64,000 nt of DNA from Plumapathes pennacea (Eukaryota > Cnidaria > Anthozoa > Antipatharia > Myriopathidae), in NCBI GenBank assembly GCA_964036295.1, contig OZ038462.1:27889759-27953758 (forward strand), in the 5' to 3' direction. Below the pieces are notes generated by a model. The model made no database searches. It worked only from the letters and a program-made list of their open reading frames with translations, and was not told where the DNA came from. Made by a program: the position numbers and the translations under genes. Positions 1-56,700 of the stretch are shown piece by piece (positions within the stretch are counted from its first letter, which is position 1; each line of letters starts with the position of its first letter).

Positions 1-3000
1 CTGAACACCCACCTGATCAAAGCGCACAGCGTCACTTGAAACAAGATTAAGAATGTTCCCACTTGTGATCTTTCCCAAGTTTGACTGGTTGAGCTCAAGT
101 ACCTGAGAAGTGTAAGATCACGAAGATAATCATTGTGGCTTTTGATGGCCGTGAAAGCCTTGGGTACGTTTTCTTGGTCTCGTTTTGTTCCGGAACAGGC
201 CGTTAGCAGAACACTTAACAGTAAAAAACTTAGGCCCATAACACTTAACAGTGAACCCCGTCTAGGCCCTCTTGTCTTGTTTTATTTAATATCCAGTCTT
301 GTAGGTTGGTTGTGATCGTCCGGGTTAGAGTAGTCTCCAGAAAGACTGTTGTTGGTGACTGACGTTTCGACTACCTGAGCGGAAGTCATCTTCAGAGTCA
401 AGTGAAAAGTATTCGTCAGATGGCGGTATATATGTCTCTGGTTGTAGAAGTGATTGGTCCGTTATGTCGGTCTATGGTTGGTCGAGTCGGCTTGGTTGTG
501 TTTCGTTATTGGTCAGTTGATGTTCTTTTGTCCTGTTGATTAGTCTATTGTTCGTTCGGTTGCGTTTGATGTCATCTATCAGTCGTTTGTATGGTGCCGG
601 TAGTTGTTGACATCTGTTGAGTGGTTTCCGTTCTAAGTTTGTGTACCAGCTTTCCAGTGTAAGTCGTTGGTAGTAGTTGGTACTGTGGCTGATGCATTCA
701 GCAGAGTCCCAGTTGATGTCGTGTTTAGTCTGTCGGTGGTGTTCAGAAATGTGATTTCTGATGTCGCCGTTTCTGGTAGCTCGTTTGTGTTCAGTAAGTC
801 TCGTGTTCAGGTTTCTGCCAGTTTCACCGATGTAGGTGGCTTTGCAGTCAGTACAAGATATTCTGTATACTGTTCCCTGTCTGTTGATGGGTTCGTCTTT
901 GTCCTTTACGTTGGTCAGTAAGTCGCGTAGAGTCGTGATGGTGATTGTGATGCAACACATCGAAGAACGCGCCCTTGCAACCTACGAACAAACGCTGCCT
1001 CTCTGGCTACGATACGTTGACGATACGTTTACTGCTGTACACAAAGACGACATTGACTCCTTCCACAAACACCTGAACGACCAAAACCCTGACATACAGT
1101 TCACTAAGGAAATCGAAGACAACGGAAAACTTCCGTTCTTAGATTGCCTCGTGAGCCACGACAACGACAGGCTACGAACTACAGTCTACAGAAAACCAAC
1201 GCACACTGACAGACTACTTGACCAGACTTCTTACAACCCTACTTCACACAAGGCTACCACGATCAGAACGCTGACGAAACGAGCGCAACTACTTTGTGAC
1301 TCTCCCGACGACTTACTTAACGAGACCCGACACCTGGAACGCGTTTTCCAGAAGAACGACTACGACCCTAACTTTGTCAAACGCAACACTCACAAGAACA
1401 CCGCACCCAACGAGACCACCGACAACGAAACCACTAACGACACAACTCCATTGACCTTGGCCACACTACCGTATATCAGAGGCACCTCTGAGACGATAGC
1501 ACGTATTCTACGACCCTACAACATCCGGGTAGCCCACAAACCCATCACGACTCTACGCGACTTACTGACCAACGTAAAGGACAAAGACGAACCCATCAAC
1601 AGACAGGGAACAGTATACAGAATATCTTGTACTGACTGCAAAGCCACCTACATCGGTGAAACTGGCAGAAACCTGAACACGAGACTTACTGAACACAAAC
1701 GAGCTACCAGAAACGGCGACATCAGAAATCACATTTCTGAACACCACCGACAGACTAAACACGACATCAACTGGGACTCTGCTGAATGCATCAGCCACAG
1801 TACCAACTACTACCAACGACTTACACTGGAAAGCTGGTACACAAACTTAGAACGGAAACCACTCAACAGATGTCAACAACTACCGGCACCATACAAACGA
1901 CTGATAGATGACATCAAACGCAACCGAACGAACAATAGACTAATCAACAGGACAAAAGAACATCAACTGACCAATAACGAAACACAACCAAGCCGACTCG
2001 ACCAACCATAGACCGACATAACGGACCAATCACTTCTACAACCAGAGACATATATACCGCCATCTGACGAATACTTTTCACTTGACTCTGAAGATGACTT
2101 CCGCTCAGGTAGTCGAAACGTCAGTCACCAACAACAGTCTTTCTGGAGACTACTCTAACCCGGACGATCACAACCAACCTACTGTTCACACTCCTGGGTT
2201 CAAACCATTTGCCATCCAGTCTTGTAACACTAAACTGTAATTTTTTACATTATAACACTTAACATTAATTTTTTAGGCTTCATAACACTTAACAGTAAAA
2301 ATATTCAGGCCCATAATACTTAACAGTAAACCCCATCTAGGCCCTCCCACATGTCTACGTGAACGCCTACCTTCTTGAAGATCAGTCCAACAGTCGCTAT
2401 CTTCCATCTCACGGACAGTAAATAGGTATTATTCAGGGTATGACACGTGGCCCACCCACAAATAGCGCTGCTTATGCATATTCCTGCACCATAGATGTAG
2501 ACCCACCAGAGCCTTTCATTTAGTGTCTCGGACATGAGAAGTGGCAGCAATAAGCTCAGCAACACCGGCTGAAGCACCTGAAAAATAATATTGATGACGG
2601 AGATGCTAAGCTGAAAGGCGTAATCATACCAACTGAACATCTTCAATAGCGCTTTGAACAAATTGAATTGTCTAGAGTACAGGCCTCCTCGGTTGGAGCT
2701 GAGCTCTTTATTCCAGGCCTCCTCCAATTTCTCCGTTTGTCCCTGGCTTTGAAGCTCGTCCAGAAGTGGAAATAAGTCGCTGTTTTCCAGAGGTCTTGTT
2801 TTTCCTGTGGCGAGGATGTCGTTCATCCAGCTGAAGGTAAACCGAGAAAAGATTCCTGCTTCTGTTTTTGGGTTTATTTCGCAGTTCTTTGTTTCTCGTA
2901 GTTTCTCGTAGGTAGCGGCCATGTTTTCAGTAGGCTTGAGGACTAAAAAAGAAAACAAGAGAGCATATTGAGAGCAAAGTCTAGTTAAATATAATCATCA

Positions 3001-20100: not shown

Positions 20101-23100
20101 ATACCTTGTCTATAGTTGAGTTGGGTCTGATATGTTGTCTACAGTTAAGTCGGGCCTAATACCTTGTCTATAGTTGAGTTGGGTCTGATATGTTCTCTAC
20201 TGTTAAGTCGGGCCTAATACCTTTTCTATAGTTGAGTTGGGTCTGATATGTTCTCTACAGTTAAGTCGGGTCTAATACCTTGTCTACAGTTAAGTCGGGC
20301 CTAATACCTTGTCTATAGTTGAGTTGGGTCTGATATGTTCTCTACAGTTAAGTCGGGTCTAATACCTTGTCTACAGTTAAGTCGGGTCTAATACCTTGTC
20401 TACAGTTGAGTCGTGATCCGTTTCATGAACTTCCTGGTCGTGTGTCACCAAGTTATTGACAGCTTTTGCGTGCATCCACGTGTCCCGTTTGGACTCTGTG
20501 CCGAGTCTGCAGGGAACCGATGTGCGCTTTTTCTTGCTGCCCTCGTCTTCGTTCTCCTGCTTTGATTTTTCCATTGCTTTCATCACCGCATTGTACACTA
20601 AAAAAAGATTGGTTTGCATTTGTTATGAGCCAGCTAAACGATTGTATGTATTATGTTACGATTACCATTAAATGATTGAGTTCCAGTGAACGTGTAAGGA
20701 TGTGCAATCAAACGCAATGTAACGCATTCATGTGGGAGATTTTAACCTGCTTGCTTTTATTCAATCAATTCCAATCCATCAACCATTTAACTAACACGAT
20801 ATGTCCAGTCAGAAGCCGCTGAACCCTACTTATTTAACGTGCGACTAAAACTGTCCAATCAGAAGCCGCGTTCTTGTTTTCCTTTCTCCACGTTTGGGAA
20901 GAGCGATTCGTCCAATCAGAAACCTCGTATCTCTTTTTTTACGTGACTGATACGATACGTCCAATCAGAAGCCGCGCACTTGCTCAACTTCTTTAATTTT
21001 GCTTCAACTTCTGATACGCACGTGTTTTGTACGAAGTGTGGTTGTCACTCACCTGCGTTATTCTTTGATACGCGCTCTTTTAGTTCCAGTGGAATAACCT
21101 GCTTCTCACGTAAACTCCCGCCATACTCTTTGGCGTTCAAAATACAGAACACGTGACCAGTTTCTAGGCTCCATATTTTCACGTCCCCGTCATAACTGGC
21201 TGTGGCCACGAGATTGGGTCTGTAAAGGTCGATTGACAAGATGTCGTCCTTGTGGAAGTTAGGCCATATGCGGGGTTCGCCTTCTTCTTCTTCTCGACAA
21301 TCCCTGAAGGAAAAAACGTGTAATTTAGTACTTCACAGCCGCAAGGTTGTCACATCTTTCACTATTATCCTTTCTGAAGGCAAGGAAACGCTACGCTAGG
21401 ATTTCCACCCCACCCGCCACGGGAGCAACATATTAAAATTCAAAATGGCGGACGCACCAGCAGCTCTTCACCAAAATACTTCTGTTTCCATTCCAGTTAA
21501 GACTAAACTGACAAATTCGTGGATTTAAATATAGTTCGAGGTCTCTTTCCTGGATTGCATTTGATGTATTTGAGGTTTAAAGGCAAATACAGTCAGGCTT
21601 GCCGCTTGTTGCAAGGCGTTTAATTCGGAAAATCGCCCGCCACTTTTCTCCATTCACTTCCACGATGAGTGCTTCATAGATAGAAGTAGTTTATTCGTTT
21701 ATTTTGTATAGCCTAATGACCAATAAGAAGCCATGTTTTATAAGTGTTAATTGATTTCGTTGTGCCTTCAAACGGGCCTGAGTGGTAAATGCGAATTAGC
21801 GTTCGCCATGTTTGTTTAATTCCTGTCCAATCAGAATTCTTCCGTAACTGTAATGAAACTATATAAGCGCGCAATTGCAGAATTTCCAACAAAATGTTTT
21901 GCAGCACTAGAAAAACTGGAAGTATGCATCGGCCAACTTACTTGTACACCGTGACTTGTCTGCTCCAACCCACAGTAATTATGCGCTGCTTGGAGCACAG
22001 AAGTCCTGTTATCTGTGTGAGACGATAAACGAACTGTGAATGAAACAGTGTCCGAGACACCTTTATCACGCTACAGCTAGTCTGCTAATTATGAACGAAA
22101 CAAACCACTGAAAAAAGCAAGCCAGGGTTCCACTCAACGAAACATTTTCCTAGTTTTTTTTACACTTCGGACCAATTTTACCACTGCCGTGGCCAAATAC
22201 TGTTGTAGTATGCAGTATGTATTTGAGAGACATTTATCAGCAATGTGTTGCAGATGTTTGTCAGATTAGAGTCTGTTTAATAGTGTTAGAGTAATGGTCC
22301 AACTTGTAAAATACAGTTGTAAATATTTACTGAATTTGCCTCCAGTTTAGCAATTGAACCAATTCTCGTAACCATATACTGACTAAAGTACGGCCAAACG
22401 TTTTTCTGAAATACAGTAGAACCCCTCTATCTCGAACTCTCCAGGGAAGCGAGAAATAGTTGGAGATAGTGAGGGATTGAGATAGTGAGGGATCGAGAGA
22501 GTGAGGGATTGAGAGAGTGAGGGATTGAGATAGTGAGGGATTGAGATAGTGAGGGATTGAGATAGTGAGGGGTCGAGATAGTGAGGAATCGAGATAGTGA
22601 GGGATTGAGATAGCGAGGGATTGAGATAGTGAGGGATCGAGATAGTGAGGGATTGAGATAGTGAGGGATTGAGATAGTGAGGGATCGAGATAGTGAGGGA
22701 TTGAGATAGTGAGGGATTGAGATAGCGAGGGATCGAGATAGTGAGGGATTGAGATAGCGAGGGATTGAGATAGTGAGGGATCGAGATAGTGAGGGATCGA
22801 GAGAGTGAGGGATTGAGAGAGTGAGGGATTGAGATAGTGAGGGATCGAGATAGTGAGGGATTGAGATAGTGAGGGGTCGAGATAGTGAGGAATCGAGATA
22901 GTGAGGGATTGAGATAGTGAGGGATTGAGATAGTGAGGAATCGAGATAGTGAGGGATTGAGATAGTGAGGGATTGAGATAGCGAGGGATTGAGATAGTGA
23001 GGGATTGAGATAGTGAGGGATTGAGATAGTGAGGGATTGAGATAGTGAGGGATTGAGATAGTGAGGAATCGAGATAGTGAGGGATTGAGATAGTGAGGGA

Positions 23101-26100
23101 TTGAGATAGTGAGGAATCGAGATAGTGAGGGATCGAGATAGTGAGGGATTGAGATAGTGAGGGATTGAGATAGTGAGGGATTGAGATAGTGAGGGATCGA
23201 GATAGTGAGGGATCGAGATAGTGAGGGATTGAGATAGTGAGGGATTGAGATAGTGAGGGATTGAGATAGTGAGGGATTGAGATAGTGAGGAATCGAGATA
23301 GTGAGGGATCGAGATAGTGAGGGATTGAGATAGTGAGGGATTGAGATAGTGAGGGATTGAGATAGTGAGGGATCGAGATAGTGAGGGATTGAGATAGTGA
23401 GGGATCGAGATAGTGAGGGATTGAGATAGTGAGGGATTGAGATAGTGAGGGATTGAGATAGTGAGGGATTGAGATAGCGGGGTTCTGCGTACTTTAAGAA
23501 GAGTCAATTGATAAAGTTAAATGAATAAAGAAAGAAAAATATTTAATACTTAAGAAAATATATAATATATAAATGTATGTATAAGGTTTTGGACAGATGA
23601 GCTAAACCCCTTGCTCGTTTACATTCGTTTACCATACAAATCCTACGAGAATTACAAATTAAAACTATTCTATGTGTACCTCATCGCTGTCTACTGAGCC
23701 CAGCTCCCGTAAACAGCAGCCGTTGTTGAAATTCCATATCTTCACGGTGCCGTTTCTCGACCCTGTCACAAGCCGACGCTTGGACGGGTCAAAGGTCATC
23801 GCTGTTATCTCGGCACCATCATGCGCATTTGAGAACTGGATGATCTTCTCGCCCGTCTCCAGGCTCCACACGCACACCACTGAGTCGTGACAGCAACTGA
23901 CAACCTAGGACGAGTGACGTCATCAGTGTTGTTTACAGCTTTGGGCTTCTACGTGAACAAGCAAAAGGGTCATGTGATATGCTACTGTACCTGGTTAAAT
24001 AGGTCATTGTACAACGCTGCGCAGATCGGTTTGAAATGACTTGTGACCTCTCGTTCTTCTGAGGGTTCTTCGCTCTTTCCCTCGATCACAGAAAGCTAGA
24101 CAAACAGACAGACAAAATGTACTTAGCTTGTAATCCTGTTGTTAACTATACATATTCCATGTCGTAAAAAGTAATAAGGACTAGAAAGAAAAAAAAAACA
24201 TAACAACAACAAAGCTAAATCCATAGACTGTTAGCACATACAGCAGATAAAATAATCTTGTCCTCATGCGTTAGTTATATATTCCTGCTTTCTAAGAGTT
24301 CAAAGTGACTTATGTTGAAGGTTTGGAAAGTTTAAATTCACACAACACCAGTGTGATTTGTGCCCAGGATTTTGTCTCTGATTTACTTTGTGTGTCTCGT
24401 GCATACATTGCTGCTGTAAGTATGAATATTGTACCTGGTTTGTGCCAACTAGGATGCAGTGTGTCTTGGGGTTGAAGTAAATGCTGGATATGGCATGAGG
24501 ACCGGGCAGTAGAGAGCGACTGGGAATTGTCTGAACACAGCACAAGTCGCGCATATCCCAAATCTTGATAACCTAATATGATCAGAAGAGAAATAGCCAT
24601 GAGAACGCGTTCTTTCCTTTTTCCTCTGTTAACTGTCCGATAGTGCCTTTTGGTGCAGAAGTCAAATGCAAGACTCCTCTTAGCTGTTCTCGCAAATTTG
24701 GGGTAATGTCGTGTGTACAAGGATTGAATAAGGCCAATTTTAGGGTTTTTAAGGTCGGCGTCTCACGAAAGTGAGAAGCACGACCTTGTTGCGGCCACGA
24801 CACCGTCAGTCCGTCAGTCAGTCCGTCAGTCAGTCCGTCATCTGTGTCAACAATAGACTTCCAAATTAGGGCACGATCACGCATGATGAAATACATTTCA
24901 AGAGATCGATTAACTTTAAAGGCACGGAATTATACGACCTTTTAATCACGGCTTTTGGTGAAAGTATGAATGCGGAAGATGCTCCAAAGGTTTATACTTC
25001 CTCTTGGCCGATACCTCGAGTGTTTCAAGCATCGCCCGATTTTCCTGATAAACTCTGTGTGAAAACAACATTTCATACTGGCGTAACGGTACGGACTTTA
25101 TATCGATCGCGTAGTTATTATTTTGTGTGAATGTTTCAGTCGGTTTGCCGTACACAGGAACCCGGCGTTCATCTCTATCGACACTCATTGTGCAGTGGAC
25201 GCGCGCGATTTTAGTTGTTTACATTCCTCAGTTTAAATTTGCCTGGATAACTTACCGCAAGACTTGAAGTATATTGTGTATGCCGAAGCCCTTGAACGAA
25301 AGGTTACTTTGGTGTTCTTCGTTGATAATGATTTACAATATTATTAAGAGTTCGCTCGAACGAACTATGCAAGAAAATAACACATTCTTGTACGTATGTA
25401 CGTATTCGGTCATCCGGTTAATATTTATCTGTTTCATCGGATTACCGAGACCGTAAATATGTGAACCTTCTATGACAGGTCATTTATGTGACTATAATAA
25501 ACTTCACTCAAAAAGCATTTTGTATTCGTCGTCATTTGAAACCCGAGTTAATGATTACCGTGAATATGTATACCGCTTGGAAGGAAGTTACGCCGCTCAA
25601 AATGATTTAAACACCGGTAAAGCGGGCAAGTTTTGTGCACTTTAGAATATATCCTGTCAATGTTCGCTTTGAGTTGAGGGGATTGCACTTTGAGGTTTAC
25701 GAGAAGTTATTTGACTCTCTGAGCTGAGCTGATTGCCTCATTAAATATGCTTGTTACGCTTGATTGAGTGCAAGCGTGTTGCCCTCATAGTGGTAAAGCG
25801 TGACGTCTTATTTTGCAAAATTTTCCATTCGAATCTCTAAACATACACAGCTGCTGCACAAACGTGTGCAAAGTTTCAAATCACTAGCCCTACTGACAGC
25901 AACCAGTTTGCTCCATACTGAACTCTCTTATTTAGCATCAGTTCTAAATCAAAGGAACCATTAACACCAAATAGGAGGGTTTAGTATTGAGCAATTTGAA
26001 CTTCAATAGCCCACATCTCAGCTGTTCAATGCGCTAAAGAGCTAATTTTTTGTGTGACCGTTTTTAGACAGGGCATTCCACAGAATTGTTTAAAATCCAT

Positions 26101-37481: not shown

Positions 37482-37722
37482 AGTTGTTGCAGGCCTTGTA
37501 GTTCTGTGGGAGACCACTGCAAAAACGTATGCGGAAAACTGAGCTAATAAGGCACTTCTCGAAACAGCGAAAGAGTTTTACAGCAGCTCGGTGCCACAGA
37601 GCGAAGGTTTGCCGCATTTAATCTGCAGACAATGTGAAAGACGCCTCGACAACTTCAGAGCTTTCAAAAAAGGTCATTTCGAGAGTCAAGGCTCCTTCGG
37701 AAGGGTGAAAAGATGCATTTAA
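37482..37722 (+). pseudogene. Broken cysteine-rich (ZAD-like) zinc-domain fragment
   Basis: Two frames must be combined. The first has CCRPCSSVGDHCKNVCGK and runs into stops. The second, one frameshift later, reads VPQSEGLPHLICRQCERRL and then DNFRAFKK..ESQGSFGRVKRCI before TAA. The pattern of two CxxC pairs with a GDHxKN stretch and RRLxNFxxFK resembles ZAD-type DNA-binding zinc domains. It is a relic of a multicopy gene or transposon, with several lesions. Confidence 0.5.
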
Positions 37723-38217
37723 ATACGAAGGTGCGCTATAAAAGGCCGTTGGCCGCCTCTTTCGACATCAAATTTGCATAATGTTTGTTGAATCGCACGT
37801 GCGTCCACAGCGTTCAGAAGTCGCTCTGTCCATGAAATTTCTCTGCAGCAACTAAAAGTATACCTAAAACTAAACACATACGGGCAACTTTAATGTGGAG
37901 TCCTGGACGGAAGGATTTGAAACGATATTTTTCTCTTGGCTGCCAAAATACATTTTGAATTTCGCGATGCAATACGACCACCAAGCATATTTAATTTTTT
38001 GCTTTGAAGATTATTCTTGGATTTACTCAAATTGCACTCCAAATGAATGTTTATGTGATGGAAAATTGGTGAGGCAACATTATCTTGTTTTGCGTGGTAT
38101 TCAAGTACAAGAAAAACAAAATTTGGACATTTTTGGCTTTCTACTAATTAGGAGCTGTTGTCTCGGTCGCTGTTGATTGACAAGTGGCTCTGCGCTTCCC
38201 TGGGAAGCGCCCTTTTA

Positions 38218-38232
38218 GGCCCCGTTTACACT
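38218..38232 (+). repeat. Left terminal inverted repeat of the RAG1-like transposon
   Basis: GGCCCCGTTTACACT preceded by TTA; exact reverse complement of the right end. Confidence 0.85.
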
Positions 38233-38731
38233 TGAAAACTGTTTCGGATACAAAGTCACGGCCGTTTCGCGCGAGACATTAGTTTCCAGACTACCTCTCT
38301 TTCAATGATCACTTACGCTGAGAACTCGCGGGCGCATAAACAAAGCGATTTTCCGCCATTTTTAAAGTCTTGCAGTGAACCGGCTTTTCTTAAACAAATT
38401 ACTTTCATACGTTCGTAGTTTACAACTTTTACATGTAGTGCCATACTTTTCACGTCTTTCCACGAAGTTTTTTAGCCAGGCAACATTTCTGCACTTTTTT
38501 CACGGCCTTCATGCTCGGTCGTTCGGAACTGACGTCCGTCAATATCGTCCACTAAAGTGGCAGGGAAGAAACTGAAGGAAGGTTTTCTCCTCGACAGGTA
38601 CGTCATTTTCTGAGACTACTACGGTTACTATGTATCTAACTTACTATCAATTCTTTGCAACTATTTTTTTTGCGCAAGGAAACAAGCCGCTGAAAGTGTT
38701 AATTTGTTCGCGTTTTACAGGCCTTTTTAAA

Positions 38732-41700
38732 ATGTCTTTGTGCCCCAGTATCGAGTTTCATCGCAACAAACTGGAACGTTGTTGTCTGGTCTGTGGTGAG
38801 TTTATTAAAAGCCGTGGTTTTTGTGCCAAAAGATTCAGAGACGACCTCCAGAACTGCTTTAGCATTAACGGACAAGAAGACTCGGAATGGCAACCCACGA
38901 AATTCTGCAAGTGTTGCTCGAGTAAGACGTCTAAGTGGAAGGCAAAAGATGGCAAATACCAACACTCAACACAGGTCATGTCATGGACCCCACATACAAA
39001 CGAGTCATGCTCTATTTGTGAATTTTATTTGCAAAGATGTAAAGGTGGAGCCAAGAGAAAAAGCACCAAAGGAAGAGGTCGGCCATCTGGTAACAAGAAA
39101 TTGCAACAACAATCAGCTCGGCAAATGGCCAGTTCAACATTTAAAATTCCTGAAGACATGGTAAAATCATTGTTTCCCAGAACTGCCATGCCACCTCTTG
39201 GCAAAGTCTTGTCTCCAGGCGAATTGATCATCTGCCCCATATGTAGGGAGGTTATGGATGCTCCTGTTCTTGGCCCCTGTGAGCATGCATACTGCTCAAT
39301 ATGTCTGCAGACATGGGCTGAACACTGTCAACAGAATGGTCAGCAGGTTACCTGTCCAGAGTGCAAGTGTGAGCTTCATGAAGCAAACATTTGTCCCCCA
39401 CCAAGGTTGCTGTTACAGCTGATTAATGACACCAAAGCTAGCTGTAGGAATTGCAATAACATTTATGCACTGGATGCAATGGAGCAACATGAGCTCACTT
39501 GCACTAGAGCTAGAGTGCCACTGCAAACCCTCATTCAAGGCCCAGAGAATGTACCCCAAGTTATGTCCAGAAGCTTGGATAAACCTCTGAGCCATGTAGA
39601 GCAACATCTTGTAAGCCGCCTGGTGCAAAGGAAAATCCGCACAGAAGGAAACACAGTGTTATCCCTTGTTACACAGGGCACAGTATGTATTTTCTGCCTT
39701 TTATTCCCAGTGGAATCTAACCACTTTCTCACTGTTAGAAAATACTAAGAACAAGAAAAGTAATTATTACAAATGCAAACATACAATGTTACTAAAATGT
39801 ACAGGAACCTGCAGCTTAGTAGGATGAATTTAACTACCACAAATATATCAATACTTCTTTCTTAGCCTTTGAGCATGGCCATTCTTCACAAGGGAAGAAA
39901 ACCTCAGGTTTCACATCGCACTGTGCAGCGACGGGTCAATCATGTAAAACACCTTTGCACAACTATTTCCGGTGGAGATCCAATATCCCTTGTCACAGCT
40001 GAGATGAGCCAGCTTCCAAAGTCAGAACGACAAGTGCTAATGAAGGATGCTGGCTTCAAACTTGAAGTTCCTGAAGGTGAAGGGCTGGCAATGAAAGCAA
40101 GCCTTGGAATACCATGGAGCAAACTGCGCCACCTAAGAAGGTATAAAACTTTACTACATGAATAAAATGTTTTCCTGGAATGGCTAATCTTTTACTCTTT
40201 TATTGCAGGATGTCATGTTCAGTTTAGTCTGCACACCATTACCAGTAAATTTACTATTACTTGCTGGAAACTATGTTTGAAATCAACCACTTATTGTTTC
40301 AGATGGTTTAGTAGCTGGGGCCTATCTATCCAGAGCGAAAAAAGGGACCGCCTGCTGGCTGGGACTCAGGAGTTGGGCCACATCAACACGGAGAAATTAC
40401 CTTTCACGTTTCCCCTGAAAAAGGGTACAGAAATATGAGCAGCCACATGTGCCTGGATCGATGACCTTGCTGGTGCAATCCAAATGCACCTGGAAGAAAA
40501 CCAGAGGTTAGCAATGTATCATTATTTCACCATGTGGCATGACATTACACTGTTTTGTATGAAAGGCTTTTAGTTATTTTTTCTACATTTCTATGTTTAT
40601 TTCAGATGCAATCGTTTAACATGGCATAATGGGGTGATACCACCCAAGGAAATATGGATAAAGATTGGAGGAGACAAAGGAGGTGGCACCTTCAAAATGT
40701 CATTCCAAGTTGCCAACACTCCATCCCCTAATTCAGCCCAGAACACAGTAGTCTTCAACATCTTTCAAGCCCCAGACTCCTACAGCAACATTAGACTAGC
40801 TCTAGAGAGATATGTGCCACAAGTGGAGCAACTACAACAACTAGTCTGGAAGTAAGTGCCAATTTCATGTTTATGGAGATACAATCTGACTGAAAAAATT
40901 TATAACCTATGCTAATGTACAAATTCACTTTCTTACACAAAGTGGACAACACTGTCAGGGTTCTTAACTTTTTAGGCCACTTGCAAATATTCGCTAGTAT
41001 AACGATTAATTTTCACTAGTATCATAAGTGAAGCCTCTAGCAGTTTCTTTCAAGCAGCTGTTTTCTTTTCAGGCTTCTATAATAAAGATACAGATGTTTA
41101 TTTGCAAATGTGTGCTAGTGGATTTTTGGCTTGCAAACTTTAAAGACCAGCATTTTGAAAGTTGGTGAGCACTGATTTTGAGCCCTGACTGTATCATGAC
41201 AAAATATCCAGATGGCCACAATTAATGGGAGAATGCTCATATAGATATTTATGTGTATTACTTTCCCTTGCAGTGAGAAGAAACTGAAGCTATTTGTATT
41301 TGGGGATTATGCCTTTCTATGCACTTTGTTTGGATTAAGTGGAGCTAGTGGTGAGTAAACCACATCAGTACATGCACTGTAAGTGCAAACCAATATATGT
41401 ATGCTATACTGCATATCACTGTGAGAAGGTACACTAGAAAGTTTGATTTTTGACATTCTCATGTCATTTTGACTGTCAAAATTTAGGTCATCATTGTTGC
41501 CTCTGATGTTGCATCCGCAAGGACGAACTAGCAGTTCCACCAGAAATCAGAGGAAAGAAGGAAAAAAGAACACTTGAGAGTCTGGAAAATACCCACAAGG
41601 AATTTGTGGCCGCAGGAGCACACCTCCAGTCAACAAAGATGTTCTACAATGCCATCCACCTCCCTCTGTTTAAGATTCCATTGATTCAAGTAAGTTCATA

Positions 41701-43666
41701 TTATACTATACAGTACAAGGATGTTACAGGTAAAAGAAAGTATCTTTATAATCAAGTTTTAATTATAAAACCTAAAACTAACTCTGTTGCTTGACGTTTG
41801 TCAAATTTAGATTTGCATTCCTGGACTTCATATCAGCCTGGGGATATTTAAACGCCTGCATGTGCTCCTTGTACAAGAGCTTGATCAGTTAGATCTTCTG
41901 ATTGCAAACAACACTGCACAAGATGGAAAGAAGGTAAGACTTTTCCTTGATCATCTGGAAACAGTGAAAACAATTTAAAAGTAAGGTAAATGTGTTTGCA
42001 CATTTCAACAGGCTGGTGAAGTTGAGTTTCAGAAATACACAGAAACTCTTGGGAAGATTCATATGGGCCAGAAACACCTGGATGACCTTCAGCAGGAACT
42101 CCATGATGTGAACACACTGGCATACTACCTCAATCTTCAGGATGAGAGTGTAAAAGTGCAAACTCAGCTGAACTACCTCCAGTGCAGGGAAACTGAACTC
42201 AAGAAAATGATTGAACAACAGGTTTGTATACCAGAGGACCAAATTGCAGCTATACTTGCAAACGTTTCACATAAGAAGGAGAAATGAAAACTGAAGTCTG
42301 ATTTCTTTTGCATTTAAAATGGCATTTGCCTACACTGTTTGGATGTAACAACCTTTTTGGGATTGACTACACACTAAGTACTGTACAGCTGTATATTCAT
42401 TTGTTTTATTACCAGTTTATAAGTATGCTAATTTATTGCAGGAGGAATCACTTAAAACACTTAAAGGCAAGCTGAAATTTGTAGGGGGAAGTGGCCCATG
42501 CAATAGGGCATTGGAACAAGCATTGAATGACATGCATGTTCAACGTCAAGCCTATCATGGTGGAGAGTTTGTTGGTAATCATGTGGACAAGTGTCTAAAG
42601 GTAAACCATCTGGAGAAAACAGTTATGCAACAAATCTTTCGGTATCCCTATTTACTTGTTTTAATCTTCTAAATGTATGGACCATTAAAAAAAAACATAT
42701 GCTCAACCCTCTGATAAAAGTCCCACATTGATTTGGAAATGTACTGATACCTGCACATGATAAATGCTTTGTCTTTAGCTGGTCCACACTTCATGTTATT
42801 AAAAAAACAGTTGTTCACAAATAAAAATAATGTAAACAGCATTTGGTGGTTCAACTATAGAACAATAACATTGTGATTAACTACTAACTCTAGATTTTTC
42901 AACAGCCTCAAAACATTGACAAGATTACCAAGTCATGGCTGGGAGTAATTAGTGAGTTGTGTCCAGAGCTACTTCCAAGATCTAACAATGTGAAGAACAG
43001 ATTCAGAAACTTGTTTCTTGCGTTTTCGTGCTGTCACGCGGTCTACAATAGCGGACAGAGGATTACTGACAGTGAAATCAAGAAGCTGGGTAAAGTACTA
43101 TAACCATGCCGTCTCAGATCACAACGTTCACCGATATTAGACACTTGGTATTTAGTTAGTTGTTTTTTGAAAAAACCGGCCTATTAAAATCTTCTCTTGC
43201 AAACTTACACTAAATATTAACAATCACCTCTTTATCATCGGTTTCTTCTCATCAACGGAGTAAGATGATTAGGCAAACCTAACCGTTTAAATGATATGGC
43301 AAGGAGACCGAACAACTCAGATACAATGTAATGACAAATTCATCACTTACATTTTCACAGGCGAGGACATCCAGTACTTCATGACTGTTTACAGGGCTAC
43401 AGCAAACTCCAGTCATCGTTAAGATGCACATCCTAGAAGACCACGTTACTGATTTTATTTCAGATTTCAAAGTTGGACTGGGCTTTCTCGGAGAGCAAGG
43501 AGGGGAATCGATCCACAAGAAGTTCAACGAGCTCGAAAGAACCATGTGCATGCCAAATTCTCTTCAGCGGTTTGAGGCTATACTCAAAGAACATCATCGA
43601 CAGACCTTTCCAGCTAATGTGGCGAAGGCTCCAAAACCCAAGAGCAGGAATCTAAAGGAGGAATAA
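38732..43666 (+). pseudogene. RING-finger, RAG1-N-terminal-like protein with D-D-E core, decayed
   Basis: Exons (phase consistent): 38732-39682, 39866-40140, 40303-40506, 40606-40851, 41274-41350, 41487-41689, 41811-41933, 42012-42221, 42442-42600, 42906-43089, 43361-43666; about 978 codons. A non-coding exon may end at 38597. N-terminus: CCLVCGEF, FCKCCSSK, SWTPHTNESCSICEFY and GGAKRKS follow the order of cysteine pairs and the KRK stretch in the RAG1 non-core region. A C3HC4 RING follows (CPICREVMDAP, GPCEHAYCSICL, CPECKCEL), then a CxxC..H..C finger as in RAG1. The core has GGDKGGG (D about 500), LFVFGDYAF (D about 570), CIPGLHISLGIFKRL, a coiled-coil stretch, and GEQGGESIHKKF (E about 926). 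Lesions: TGA at 40436-40438, TGA at 41504-41506, and one extra A at 43404-43406. The stop TAA (43664-43666) overlaps an AATAAA. Confidence 0.75.
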
Positions 43667-44039
43667 AGCCCTGTGAAGTTGAACTTGAAATGATCACCAT
43701 CGATCCTTGATGAACATAATCAAACGCTGAGGGCATATTTATGTTCATGTCAATTTCAATCATATTTCTTGTACAGCCCAGGTTTTACAGTACAAAGCAA
43801 AACCTGTAAACGAACCAAATCCAAATGATCAATCGATTCAAAGTATAAAATTGGCGAGACGAAACAGCCGTGGCGATCGTAATCGCCGTGAATAAAATCG
43901 AATGATTTGTTTTCAGAAATTGCTCAAAACAAGACTTTGCAGATTGATCGACTGTTCCAGTGTAAGAACCCCAGATAAATGATCAGGGGGAAAAATAGTT
44001 GCAAGACTCTTAACAAAGAAAAGGGGAAAAACAATGTTT

Positions 44040-44130
44040 AACGAGGACTTATATCACTCACCTTCGGATCGCTGATGCTTCCATCTTCATCAAACTGCCT
44101 CCTTTTTCCCACACAAAACAAAAGCTGATT
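44040..44130 (-). other. Possible small antisense exon in the transposon's right side
   Basis: On the minus strand, codons reading RRQFDEDGSISDPK end at a good 5' splice site (CCGAAG then GTGAGT, about 44065-44059). The frame looks like an acidic loop. No partner exon was found, so this is only a candidate second gene of the element. Confidence 0.2.
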
Positions 44131-44556
44131 CTGCTAGGATTTGTTATTCACCGCGCTAGAAAAAACCTTTGATTGCGACGACAGCAACAGAGAATAACGA
44201 TCCATAAACGGTGAAGCACATGTTACATCCGAGAAGACAGGCGAGCACAATATCGACGGCCCTTTCCGATAAAATATTGATTGAACAACAGCCTGTCGTA
44301 CGTCATGAATCGCTCGCGCATGAAATGATCGAGCGCCCTCGAACAGTTTGACGGAGAAGAAGTCTGGAACCGAATGTCACGAATTTGGCCTGCTGAAACG
44401 CGGGCCGTGAAGTATCCGGATACAAAGTTCCCACTTTCGATTCCGGATTCGTTTTCTCTCCGGATTCACTAAAAATGACCCCGTATTCACAAAAACTAGT
44501 GTAAACGCTTTCACGAATTCGGAAACAAATGCCTCGAATCCGGATAAATTCGCTCT

Positions 44557-44571
44557 AGTGTAAACGGGGCC
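44557..44571 (-). repeat. Right terminal inverted repeat of the RAG1-like transposon
   Basis: AGTGTAAACGGGGCC followed by TTA. A second copy of AGTGTAAACG lies about 60 bp further in (44499-44508). Confidence 0.85.
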
Positions 44572-44639
44572 TTATAGGAAGCTTGCCAAAAAGCGTGGCT
44601 GATTTGTGTCGTTTGTGCTTTCTGTTTTGATTTGACAAA

Positions 44640-51619: not shown

Positions 51620-53713
51620 GTAAGTTTTGTTTTGTGCTACTGTCGCCTTACTGTACGTGTAGGTGAACTATATTTACTTGACTCTTTACTTGACTAAAGC
51701 TAAGCCAGTTGTTTCTCTCGTTTTCAAGGTACTGTATACAAAAGACAACCATTATAAACACTGAAGTTTGTTTCTTAATTTGTTCTTTGCAGCACTTATC
51801 GCTACATCGTTGATCAGCGCAGCGGTGCATAGGACGAATTTTCGGGAGTCTTGGCCTTGTTATTTAAATTTCGAAACCCTTCTGCCTTGTTGAATCGAAA
51901 GGACAGTTTTCTTTGATATGGTGAATTTTGTAATAAATTATATCAAGCTTGCATTCCAATATGAGGTAGTACCCTAGAGTAAATAATGTTATTGTTGCAT
52001 GAGCATTCTATGTCCAATGTAATTCATTGCAATATGTAGAGAAAGGAACAGGTTGTGAGAATTTGTGTGTTATATAAATGTGCATACCAGCTGCGGATCT
52101 ACCATACTAAGTATCTGTATTTAACAAACATACATGTTTCCTTACAGTTTACCCTTCCAAAGTTTCATACACAGCAGACATTTTTATGAGAGCTGTTGAG
52201 AAATTTTGTAAAAGAGTAAATCATTTCATTTATTCAGATGACATGACAACTCATAATTAAAATGTCTACTTTTGAAGCTTGTCCATAATTGCTACATTGT
52301 TTACAATGGATGCCAAGGGTGAATATACTCGCAGAGCCCTATGTAGTCTGTTTTATAAATCCATGACAGCTTGCATGAGTTCATCCACATAAGGTAAGCC
52401 AAGGGAAGGTAGTGTACAATAAGACTATTTTAGTACTGGCACCTTCACTCTTACATTGTTGCCAATACTCGCTACGACCTAACCAGCCAATTCTTCTCCA
52501 GAAATCAATAATAATGTGCAATTATTCTGTATATGATGCAAGGCAGCTAAAAGCAAACCTTTGAAAAACAGGTTCAAAAAACCAAAATGTAAACAAACTT
52601 TTCTGGTAATTCTGAATATTTCTTGGTCAAACCTGGAAAAATTTAATATGATATACTTCTGAAGCAATTGTAACTATGAGTATTTTCTGACAGGCCCTTT
52701 TAGTCTACACCTAAATACAAAGCTTTACAGTTAACTGCTTTACCAGTTTAATCTCCAAAACCTAATTATAATAAACAACCCTGATACAACATGTGAGAGA
52801 GAATAGGCTTACTATCCTCGAGCTTCTTCGTATGTTGAGCCGTATTAGCATTTAAGTGCATTTAGGTTTATTTAAGTGCATATGCCTGAAAGAAAAGGAT
52901 ATGGTCAAGTAGAAGTGGCGATTCCTTGCCTTGGTACTGTATCACAAAAGCAATCTAAAAGCGCCCTACAGTCACTGCTTCTTGACACTTCATTTTGAGA
53001 GCATGTTGTTCCTTTTTTCCTGTAATGTTTTATTTGTGTTGGAATATATTCGGTAGTGCACCCGCTCAGTTAGGTTCTGTTGGTCGCAGGATGCAATCAA
53101 CGCTAGATCCTGAATGAAACCTGTGTTCATCATCTCTTCGAAAATAGCAGTGTTCACAATTGAAGCGGTCGGTGGATCCTGCTCAGAATACTTCGGCACC
53201 GTTTCCTTTTCACGTTAAACACTTTTCTTTGCAAGTTGTTTTGATTAGAAAATGAACAAAAGCTGGTACCAGCCTCAAATGGTGCCACACAGTGCACCAT
53301 CTTCACTCTGTTTCTTGTTGCGTTCGGATTGCTTTGGGCAACTATGACATCACACCAAATGATTTCTGGTCTAGTGCTGACAAAAGCCGAAAGTACGCCA
53401 TCTTAATTGTTTCCGATAAAAAAAGCAAAAAAGAAACTGTTGTAGCTCCGAAAATAAAACTATCTTTTCCATAAAACTTTGGAATTAAGCGATTCATATA
53501 AAAGTCTTTTAGATGAACGAAAGTCGTTTTGGGCTTTGTCCGTCTGTTGCTTTGTTTTGCATAAATAATCATACAGTAATGAAGAGAGGCTCGTATCTTG
53601 GTCTCTTAGTTTGTATTGACTTGCTGTAACTCTGTACCTTGTTTTAACATGTACAGTACTGCACCTTTTATTTTAAACAAGAAACTCAGATGTTTTTTCA
53701 TTGTTTTCCATAG

Positions 53714-56700
53714 GTGCCATATCCAACCTGTGACTTCAGCGAGGTTTCTCAGGAAAGTAGAGATGGCACATGTTAAATATTTTGCATTTTTTACCTGGGC
53801 ACTTCAGATGGCCAATGCTACCAAAGAATTGACATCTCAGTATCCGTTGTATGATATTGAAGTCGATAATGAAACAGGAGCTGTTTTTCTGGGTGGAGAG
53901 AATGTTATTCTTCGAGTCACAAAGGAATTACAACTGGAAAAAAGTGTAAGCACTGGCCCTGTAAAAGATCACCCAGATTGTCGTCCCCCAAGAGTTCCAC
54001 CTGATTGTGGACTTGAAAGAGTTTTGACAAAGAACAGAAATAAAATTCTACTCATAGACAAAGGTCGGCGGAACCTTATCACTTGTGGAAGTGTGTACTT
54101 TGGTGCTTGTCAGTTGCGGGACCTAAATACTCTGAGCACACTTAGAGAAGTAAATGATCAATTTGTGGCTTCAAGAAGTCCTAGCTCATCCATTGCATTC
54201 ATTGCACCTGGATCAACTGATGACAAGCCAGTAATGTATGTTGGTGCAACTTGGGATAACACTCCACTTGTGTATTATCAAGCAGCAGTTGCCAGTCGAA
54301 ATCTTGACAATGGAAAGGAGTTGTTTCACTTTGTTGAAACACAGCTTGGTGACCCCATTTCATATATTACCTTTAAGGATCCTCAAAATTTTATTGTGAA
54401 GTACATTTATGGATTTTCCTCTGGGACATTCAGTTATTTTGTGCAGGTGCAACAAACACTTAATTCATATGAAGTTGGAGATAAAAGATACCACACAACG
54501 ATAGGCCGTGTCTGTCAGAAGGACAAAGAATATGCTTCTTATGTAGAAATGCCCTTGGTATGCCAGTCTAGCAGTGGTGAGGAATACAACATCGCACAGT
54601 CCGCTTTCCTTTCAAAGCCTGGGAAATTCCTCAGCTCAGAACTTGGGAGTAGCGGGGATGCTTTGTTTGTTGCCTTCAGTAATTCATCACTGGGGTCACC
54701 AAATGCTACTAGGTACTCGGCCATGTGTGTTTATTCTATTGAGGATATTAATCAGAAGCTGTCTGAGAATATCAAGAAATGCTTTAGTGACTCCAAACAG
54801 AACAAAGGAATGCCGTGGGCTAAAGGAGGTGGACAAACATGTGATGGAAGTACGGTGAGTACAATACTTTGTAGTACTGTATCATATACTTTTTAGATGT
54901 TGGTCATCTGAATTTGTAAAACCCAACTCTTACATCGGGAAAAATTACCTCCACCCACCCTTTCTTGGTCATTTTTTGTCCATTCCATTGTTATCCACAA
55001 CCCTGAGTTAGCCAATTTCTTGAGCTCAAGAAAACTCTGTCTCATGGTAACCATCATGGGGTGCAGAATCAAATAAAATTCATATGCAAATGCAATAAAC
55101 ATCTCTCCTTTGTTTAGCTACATTATGTAATGACACCTTGCACATGCAGCAAGTTACACCAATTTAAGCGCAACCTGATAAATGCAATAAAACAGCTTCG
55201 ATTGATAGTTTTATGGCTGGGATACTGGGATTGCCAACCATGGAAATGGAACTTCCACAGAGCGATCCAGTTGAAATGAGCTCAGGGTGTTAGTGTTTCC
55301 GCTTTTGTTTAAACTTTGTGGTTGCTCTTATTTTTAGGGTACTGACACCAGTGAGCCATTCTGTCCAGGAACAAGAATAAGTGGAAATTACCCAAACCAT
55401 CCTATTGGAGGAGAAATACCAGTGACTGCTAGTGCGACCTTTCTGTATGACTCAGCGTCGCTTACGGCCATTGTGGCCATGCCAGTTAACGACTACACTG
55501 CTGTCCTTCTTGGAACTGCACATGGTCATTTGCTAAAGGTACAGTACAGTCTCAGTTATATGGCACAACATTATTCATAGACAAGGGTACTAAGTACATT
55601 TATGTTTCTTTGGGCCTTGTATTTTTATGTTGAATTAATGCCCTACTGTACTTCAAGGCAACCTCTTTTGTACTGTACATAAGCTTAAACACTGTAGTGG
55701 TTCATTGGTTGAACCAGACCACGTGACCACCTGTATAATAAGCCTGTTAATATATTCAATAGATTAGTATGTGTTATGAACTACTCGTGGTTGGTCTACT
55801 ACAAACACGAAGACGTGGTATAAAAGGAGAGATGCCTAAGGTTTCTTGCCTTCAGTTGTCAATCAACCGCCGTCTGTGTCGGACGCTCTTATGAGATCTC
55901 TCTCTGAAACAAAAATTGTTCCGTCATTTGCCATTATGCGTATGAATCTGTAAAGTTCAGGACATACCGTCGTAAATACTAGAAATACGATATTCGCAAA
56001 GGTCCCACGCCCAAGTAATCGATTATGTATGACATTGCTGGGTAGAGCTCTCATGTAATGTGACTGAAGGCAATTAATGACACTACAGTTGAAGCTCTCT
56101 GGCGGACACTCTCGTAAGCGGACAGCACTACTTACGAACACATCTACGAGACCTATTTAAACTCTAGCTAAGTCAAACTTTGCAATTACCCATTCTCGTA
56201 AGCAGACAGTTATTTCCCCACAGTAAGCATAGAAAGTGTCCATAACTGTGTCCATTTACGGGAGCTTCAACTGCATATCAGCATTTACATGATATTGACA
56301 TGCGTGGTATAAGCATACATGAGAACTCTACCCATTGCCGTTTGAAGAGCACAGTAATTCTGTTATATATGTTGGTTGGTCGTGAAAGTTATTCTTCTCT
56401 TTCACACAAAATGCCATGTTCATTTCACAGTGATTTATTTTGTTCCATAAATATTAAGAAAGTATACAGAGACGGTCTTTGCACTGCATTCGTTGGTGAA
56501 ATAAAACGTATATATATTTCTCAAGTATACACCCTACTTTTCAAGGTTTCAATATTGTTGCATGTGTTCCCTGGTACATGTACTAAAGCACAAAATCCCA
56601 TGCCAGGAAAAAATAACCCTAAACCTATACTCCCCTTCATATTGGAAAATTGGAAGTTCCTGTGAGAGTGAAAATGGAAAAAATGCATTTATAAAATATA

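Follow-up and report, generated by a model that had tools for sequence, protein, structure and literature searches.

The 64,000-nucleotide stretch of Plumapathes pennacea DNA analyzed here (contig OZ038462.1, positions 27,889,759 to 27,953,758 of the forward strand; hereafter, the window) almost certainly holds a decayed 6153-bp Chapaev (CMC group) DNA transposon whose insertion into a 197-bp MITE gave rise to a duplication of the target AAGT. The transposon occupies positions 38257..44409 on the + strand, reads 5'-CACGGCC...GGCCGTG-3', and was delimited by comparing its ends with those of other genomic copies. Its target-site duplications, which carry no strand, lie at 38253..38256 (left AAGT, inside the MITE) and 44410..44413 (right AAGT). 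The element carries an eleven-exon gene in which a RAG1-like N-terminal zinc region precedes a D-D-E transposase core, a combination that the sequence-only reading of this DNA had proposed and that both parts of the gene bear out.

The sequence-only reading had taken a pair of perfect inverted repeats flanked by TTA as the ends of the transposon carrying this gene. These repeats are real: 15-bp inverted GGCCCCGTTTACACT copies are present at 38218 and 44571 with TTA on either side, but they delimit a 197-bp MITE that is found without the gene in at least 35 other places. The left piece of this MITE (GGCCCCGTTTACACT...AAAGT) spans 38218..38256 (+) and the right piece, which ends in AGTGTAAACGGGGCC, spans 44414..44571 (+), both recognized from gene-free copies elsewhere in the genome, while its unstranded TTA target-site duplications, read at the borders, lie at 38215..38217 and 44572..44574. 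When a 74-base query from the left repeat was searched against the host genome, 36 of the best 40 of 146 candidates (window included) matched the query perfectly over its first 39 bases or more, and matches elsewhere broke off at or near base 39, which is where the gene-bearing element starts in the window. A second query was then built from both flanks joined with a single AAGT (38218-38256 plus 44414-44571). Among the best 40 of 349 candidates, which gave 41 rows, 35 rows spanned all 197 bases, so that at least 35 full-length (1-197) gene-free relatives with 92-98% identity exist in the host genome, none of them the window, whose own row spans 36-197. Twenty MITE loci were read for target-site duplications, of which one was partial and set aside and two pairs had common flanks, each pair being maybe one insertion. 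A matching 3-bp duplication was found at 18 of the 19 full-length loci (7 TTA, 6 TAA, and 5 other). Because gene-free 197-bp copies with 3-bp duplications occur elsewhere, the outer repeats are those of a MITE with mostly TWA duplications that hosts a later insertion, the gene-bearing element having jumped into it. The MITE itself is perhaps Harbinger-like.

The inner ends were located by comparing the window with 9.9-kb stretches from nine other loci that carry the gene. On the left, three of these align (L024, L026, and L029), and all three have the homology border at 38256-38257; on the right, it falls at 44409-44413 in the two that align (L024 and L025), and a further comparison puts it at 44409 in L054. 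The GGCCCC repeat was absent, allowing up to two mismatches, from all nine 9.9-kb loci, some of these stretches falling short of one copy end. Four copies could be read at both ends, and three have an intact 4-bp duplication: the window copy (AAGT), the C4 copy, which has the same CACGGCC...GGCCGTG ends and the duplication CCTG, and the C5 copy, with ends CACAACC...GGCCGTG and the duplication GCCT. The fourth, L032, has CATGG as its left end, and its duplication (AAAG/AAAA) is imperfect.

The gene was modeled by inspection from the DNA alone as eleven coding exons that span 38732-43666 on the + strand, separated by ten introns that are all GT...AG and across which the frames join, in agreement with the spliced eleven-exon gene proposed earlier. 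Exon 1 (38732..39682) encodes the RAG1-type, Chapa-like N-terminal zinc region, a RING, and a C2HC finger. It is followed by exon 2 (39866..40140), exon 3 (40303..40506), and exon 4 (40606..40851), which contains GGDKGGG with the presumed first catalytic D (codon 40673-40675) and the DUF1280 match. The presumed second catalytic D (codon 41305-41307) lies in the FGDYAF of exon 5 (41274..41350), the C(2)C motif in exon 6 (41487..41689), and PGLH, the LH motif, in exon 7 (41811..41933). Exons 8 (42012..42221), 9 (42442..42600), and 10 (42906..43089) lead to exon 11 (43361..43666), which holds H(4)H and GEQGGESIH with the presumed catalytic E; all eleven exons are on the + strand. Joined, they give 979 residues as read. 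The copy is broken, which the sequence-only reading had missed: in-frame stops are present at 40436-40438 (exon 3) and 41504-41506 (exon 6), and the frame changes at about 43403-43422 (exon 11). As read, the window copy cannot yield a full protein.

The core very probably belongs with Chapaev transposases. Pfam DUF1280 matched the core of the window copy at 56.3 bits (E 4.5e-15), above its cut-off of 25, and also matched two paralogues (49.6 bits, E 5.2e-13, and 36.3 bits, E 6e-9). The acidic motifs pointed out earlier (GGDKGGG, FGDYAF, and GEQGGESIH) are all present, and in an alignment of five of the seven cores built from the host genome (all but L025 and L027), both D residues, C(2)C, and PGLH are invariant in all five. 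H(4)H and GEQG[GA]ESIH occur in four of these five cores, i.e., in all four that reach that far. L026, a decayed copy outside this alignment, has lost the D of FGDYAF. The cysteines of C(2)C lie 19 and 22 residues from the second D, the same spacing as that between D708 and C727 and C730 of RAG1. A search of PDB sequences with the core profile returned no RAG1 or Transib structure at an E value of 10 or below. We assign the element to Chapaev because of its CAC...GTG termini, its 4-bp duplication, its D-D-E core with C(2)C, LH, and H(4)H motifs, and its DUF1280 match. It also has the RAG1-type module followed by a RING, the Chapa domain being scored here as similarity to RAG1 and RING models rather than against the published Chapa alignment. 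In its passages on these families, PMC3985635 equates DUF1280 with Chapaev transposases and groups them with RAG1, while the corresponding part of PMC4079192 gives 3- to 4-bp duplications, CAC...GTG ends, and a D-D-E core with motifs including LH and H(4)H as Chapaev hallmarks. C(2)C and H(3-4)H are described as typical of the wider group in the relevant section of PMC12730594.

The N-terminal third of the protein is RAG1-like beyond its RING, as supported by profile comparisons. All landmarks listed earlier for this region were found in the noted order, with CxxC pairs at residues 18, 59, and 93, W.PH ahead of the third of these, a G.KRK stretch, a RING at residues 168-211, and CxxC...H..C at residues 238-257. 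Exon 1 used as a single query against the PDB retrieved RAG1 as the top match (E 1.1e-6, residues 40-262 against 155-381), with TRIM5 a close second (E 3e-6). Without its RING, the window exon 1 alone gave RAG1 as the better of two PDB matches at an E value of 0.084, which is only suggestive. A RING-free profile of six paralogues placed RAG1 (21wb) first among 177,635 PDB sequences (E 7.1e-7) and 7po9 second (E 0.0013), and these two were its sole matches at an E value of 10 or below; the full N-terminal profile, RING included, matched RAG1 residues 102-378 with an E value of 5.2e-18. The Pfam model RAG1_imp_bd (cut-off 23.3) was exceeded outside the RING in two of the six members, namely, L028 (41.9 bits, residues 37-121) and L031 (32.3 bits, residues 42-125), and had no match at an E value of 10 or below in the other four, among them the window copy. 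The NCBIfam search gave nothing but RING-type and zinc matches below threshold, rad18 among them, and AlphaFold modeling of exon 1 from a six-row alignment failed (pLDDT of 36).

The RING (39233..39364, + strand), recognized above cut-off by Pfam zf-C3HC4 and zf-RING_UBOX, was considered as evidence for RAG1 and rejected. Alone, it matched TRIM31, BRCA1, and RNF125 with E values of 5.5e-12 to 9.9e-12 compared to 1.5e-11 for the best RAG1 chain, and since it matches these unrelated proteins equally well, it is no argument for RAG1. Two outcomes had been named beforehand as damaging to the RAG1 comparison: a RING resembling TRIM or RNF proteins best and an absence of RAG1 similarity outside the RING. 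The RING indeed shows no preference for RAG1, but the similarity outside it is present. As the likeness holds through the RING-free profile, the N-terminal observation stands, which it would not on the RING argument alone.

The single spliced gene encodes a cut-and-paste transposase in which a RAG1-type zinc module (Chapa domain), a RING, and a C2HC finger come before an RNase H-like D-D-E core bearing the C(2)C and H(4)H motifs. By analogy with the family, the core would bind the CACGGCC ends, cut both, and join them to the target with a 4-bp stagger. By analogy with RAG1, the RING probably serves in ubiquitin ligation or in dimerization.

Other readings of the locus were weighed against this nested Chapaev insertion. 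If the whole interval were a 6.35-kb transposon with GGCCCCGTTTACACT ends, TTA duplications, and the gene as its own transposase, the existing repeats and TTA copies would be accounted for; we nevertheless consider this very improbable, given that the same ends bound the gene-free unit at so many other places, that the repeat is missing from the nine gene-bearing loci (some of them, as said, short of a copy end), and that homology of the gene halts at CAC/GTG, inside the MITE. Just as improbable is a RAG-like (RAGL/Transib) transposon or N-RAG-TP relative with a core of the RAG1/Transib lineage, i.e., an early-animal RAGL. The RAG1-like N-terminus speaks for it, as does the 19/22 spacing, which equals that of RAG1, and RAGL pairs exist in cnidarians according to the part of PMC7204232 concerned with them. 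Against this, the duplication is 4 bp and not 5 bp, the core is a DUF1280 domain, and its profile found neither RAG1 nor Transib among PDB sequences at an E value of 10 or below. Furthermore, open frames of at least 150 amino acids in the element all overlap exon 1, a survey in which a spliced RAG2-like gene would not show. Least probable of all is a host RING gene or domesticated transposase that is not a mobile element: the first exon is long and open and the splice sites are regular, which would suit it, but the terminal repeats and target duplications, the core matches at nine other genomic loci, and the stops and frame change in the window copy do not.

Outside the insertion, the window contains several other features. 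At 836-2011 (+), a 391-amino-acid frame has its end repeated almost identically in the adjoining minus-strand frame 472-981 (-); by eye, these frames are reverse-transcriptase and GIY-YIG-like, and they perhaps belong to a Penelope-like element with an inverted piece. A long repeat array that stays open in three frames and has a recurring LSQSLTISIPHYLNP-type unit occupies 22327-23516 (-). A 428-amino-acid open frame at 53610-54896 (+) resembles, by eye, a semaphorin/plexin-type extracellular domain.

Chapaev DNA transposons were reportedly described by Kapitonov and Jurka in 2007, and N-RAG-TP of Aplysia is said to have been described by Panchin and Moroz in 2008. The sequence-only reading had placed a RAG1-type N-terminus joined to a D-D-E core in early animal transposons, and in substance this is already in print. 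In its sections on the N-terminal region, PMC4411706 (Kapitonov and Koonin 2015) gives the name Chapa domain to the RAG1-type N-terminal part, with reference to Chapaev transposons of the lancelet and starlet sea anemone. It reports Chapa followed by RING, as in RAG1, in two Chapaev subgroups and infers that Chapa, RING, and core were fused in an ancestor shared by Chapaev and Transib. Like those Chapaev elements with Chapa and RING, the Plumapathes element has CAC...GTG ends, a 4-bp duplication, a DUF1280-type D-D-E core, and a RAG1-type zinc module followed by a RING. Compared by that published description, nothing fundamental differs, and the element represents one more family, with paralogous lineages of its own in this host. 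Chapaev3, as characterized in the pertinent part of PMC4079192, shares the D-D-E core with C(2)C, LH, and H(4)H, and also the Chapa domain by the account in PMC4411706, but has TWA 3-bp duplications where ours are 4 bp. With RAG1, RAGL (ProtoRAG), and Transib, the element shares the RAG1-similar N-terminal zinc region and RING as well as the C(2)C and H(4)H pairs attributed to the wider group in PMC12730594, whereas its core is dissimilar by sequence profile and its duplication is 4 bp rather than 5 bp; for RAGL transposons, the portion of PMC7204232 that treats them gives 5-bp duplications and RAG2L genes. A role for N-RAG-TP as the nearest relative, put forward earlier, is not supported: it is likewise a transposon with a RAG1-N-terminus-like protein, but by its description in PMC8355894, as far as that passage goes, it carries only the RAG1 N-terminal-like part, which in our element is joined to a transposase core.

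A wider kinship of the zinc module is possible but doubtful, namely, that the Chapaev/RAG1 N-terminal module belongs, as a divergent member, to the ZAD (zf-AD) fold found in animal transcription factors. This is suggested because 7po9 came second in the N-terminal profile search and because L024 has a weak zf-AD match (E 0.053, below cut-off); Pfam assigns the 7po9 stretch aligned to the RING-free profile to zf-AD, at 28.4 bits with a cut-off of 28. An open frame at 37543-37719 (+), about 0.5 kb to the left of the MITE, has a zf-AD match of its own (E 1.1e-5, 26.1 bits, under the cut-off of 28). Profile comparison of the N-terminal alignment with this ZAD-like frame gave a probability of 1.3% over 21 columns, which counts against the kinship, but the frame is a poor yardstick because it finds no PDB chain at an E value of 10 or below when searched alone. 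Among the paper titles and abstract beginnings listed, none concerned a link between RAG1 and ZAD. If the kinship were true, the RAG1 N-terminus and ZAD would have a common origin, possibly spread by such transposons.

Diverged Chapaev paralogues of the host genome retain open first exons at L028 3049-3759, L031 6014-6853 (-), and L030 5980-6951 (-), and their N-termini share 30-38% identity with that of the window copy. Since the RAG1_imp_bd model recognizes both L028 and L031, these two are better bait than the window copy for RAG1 N-terminal relatives. The ends of the element are corrected here, and the case shows that nesting can mislead classification. Our results agree with the published joining of a RAG1-type N-terminus and RING to a D-D-E transposase in Chapaev and add diverged paralogous lineages of such elements from one genome.
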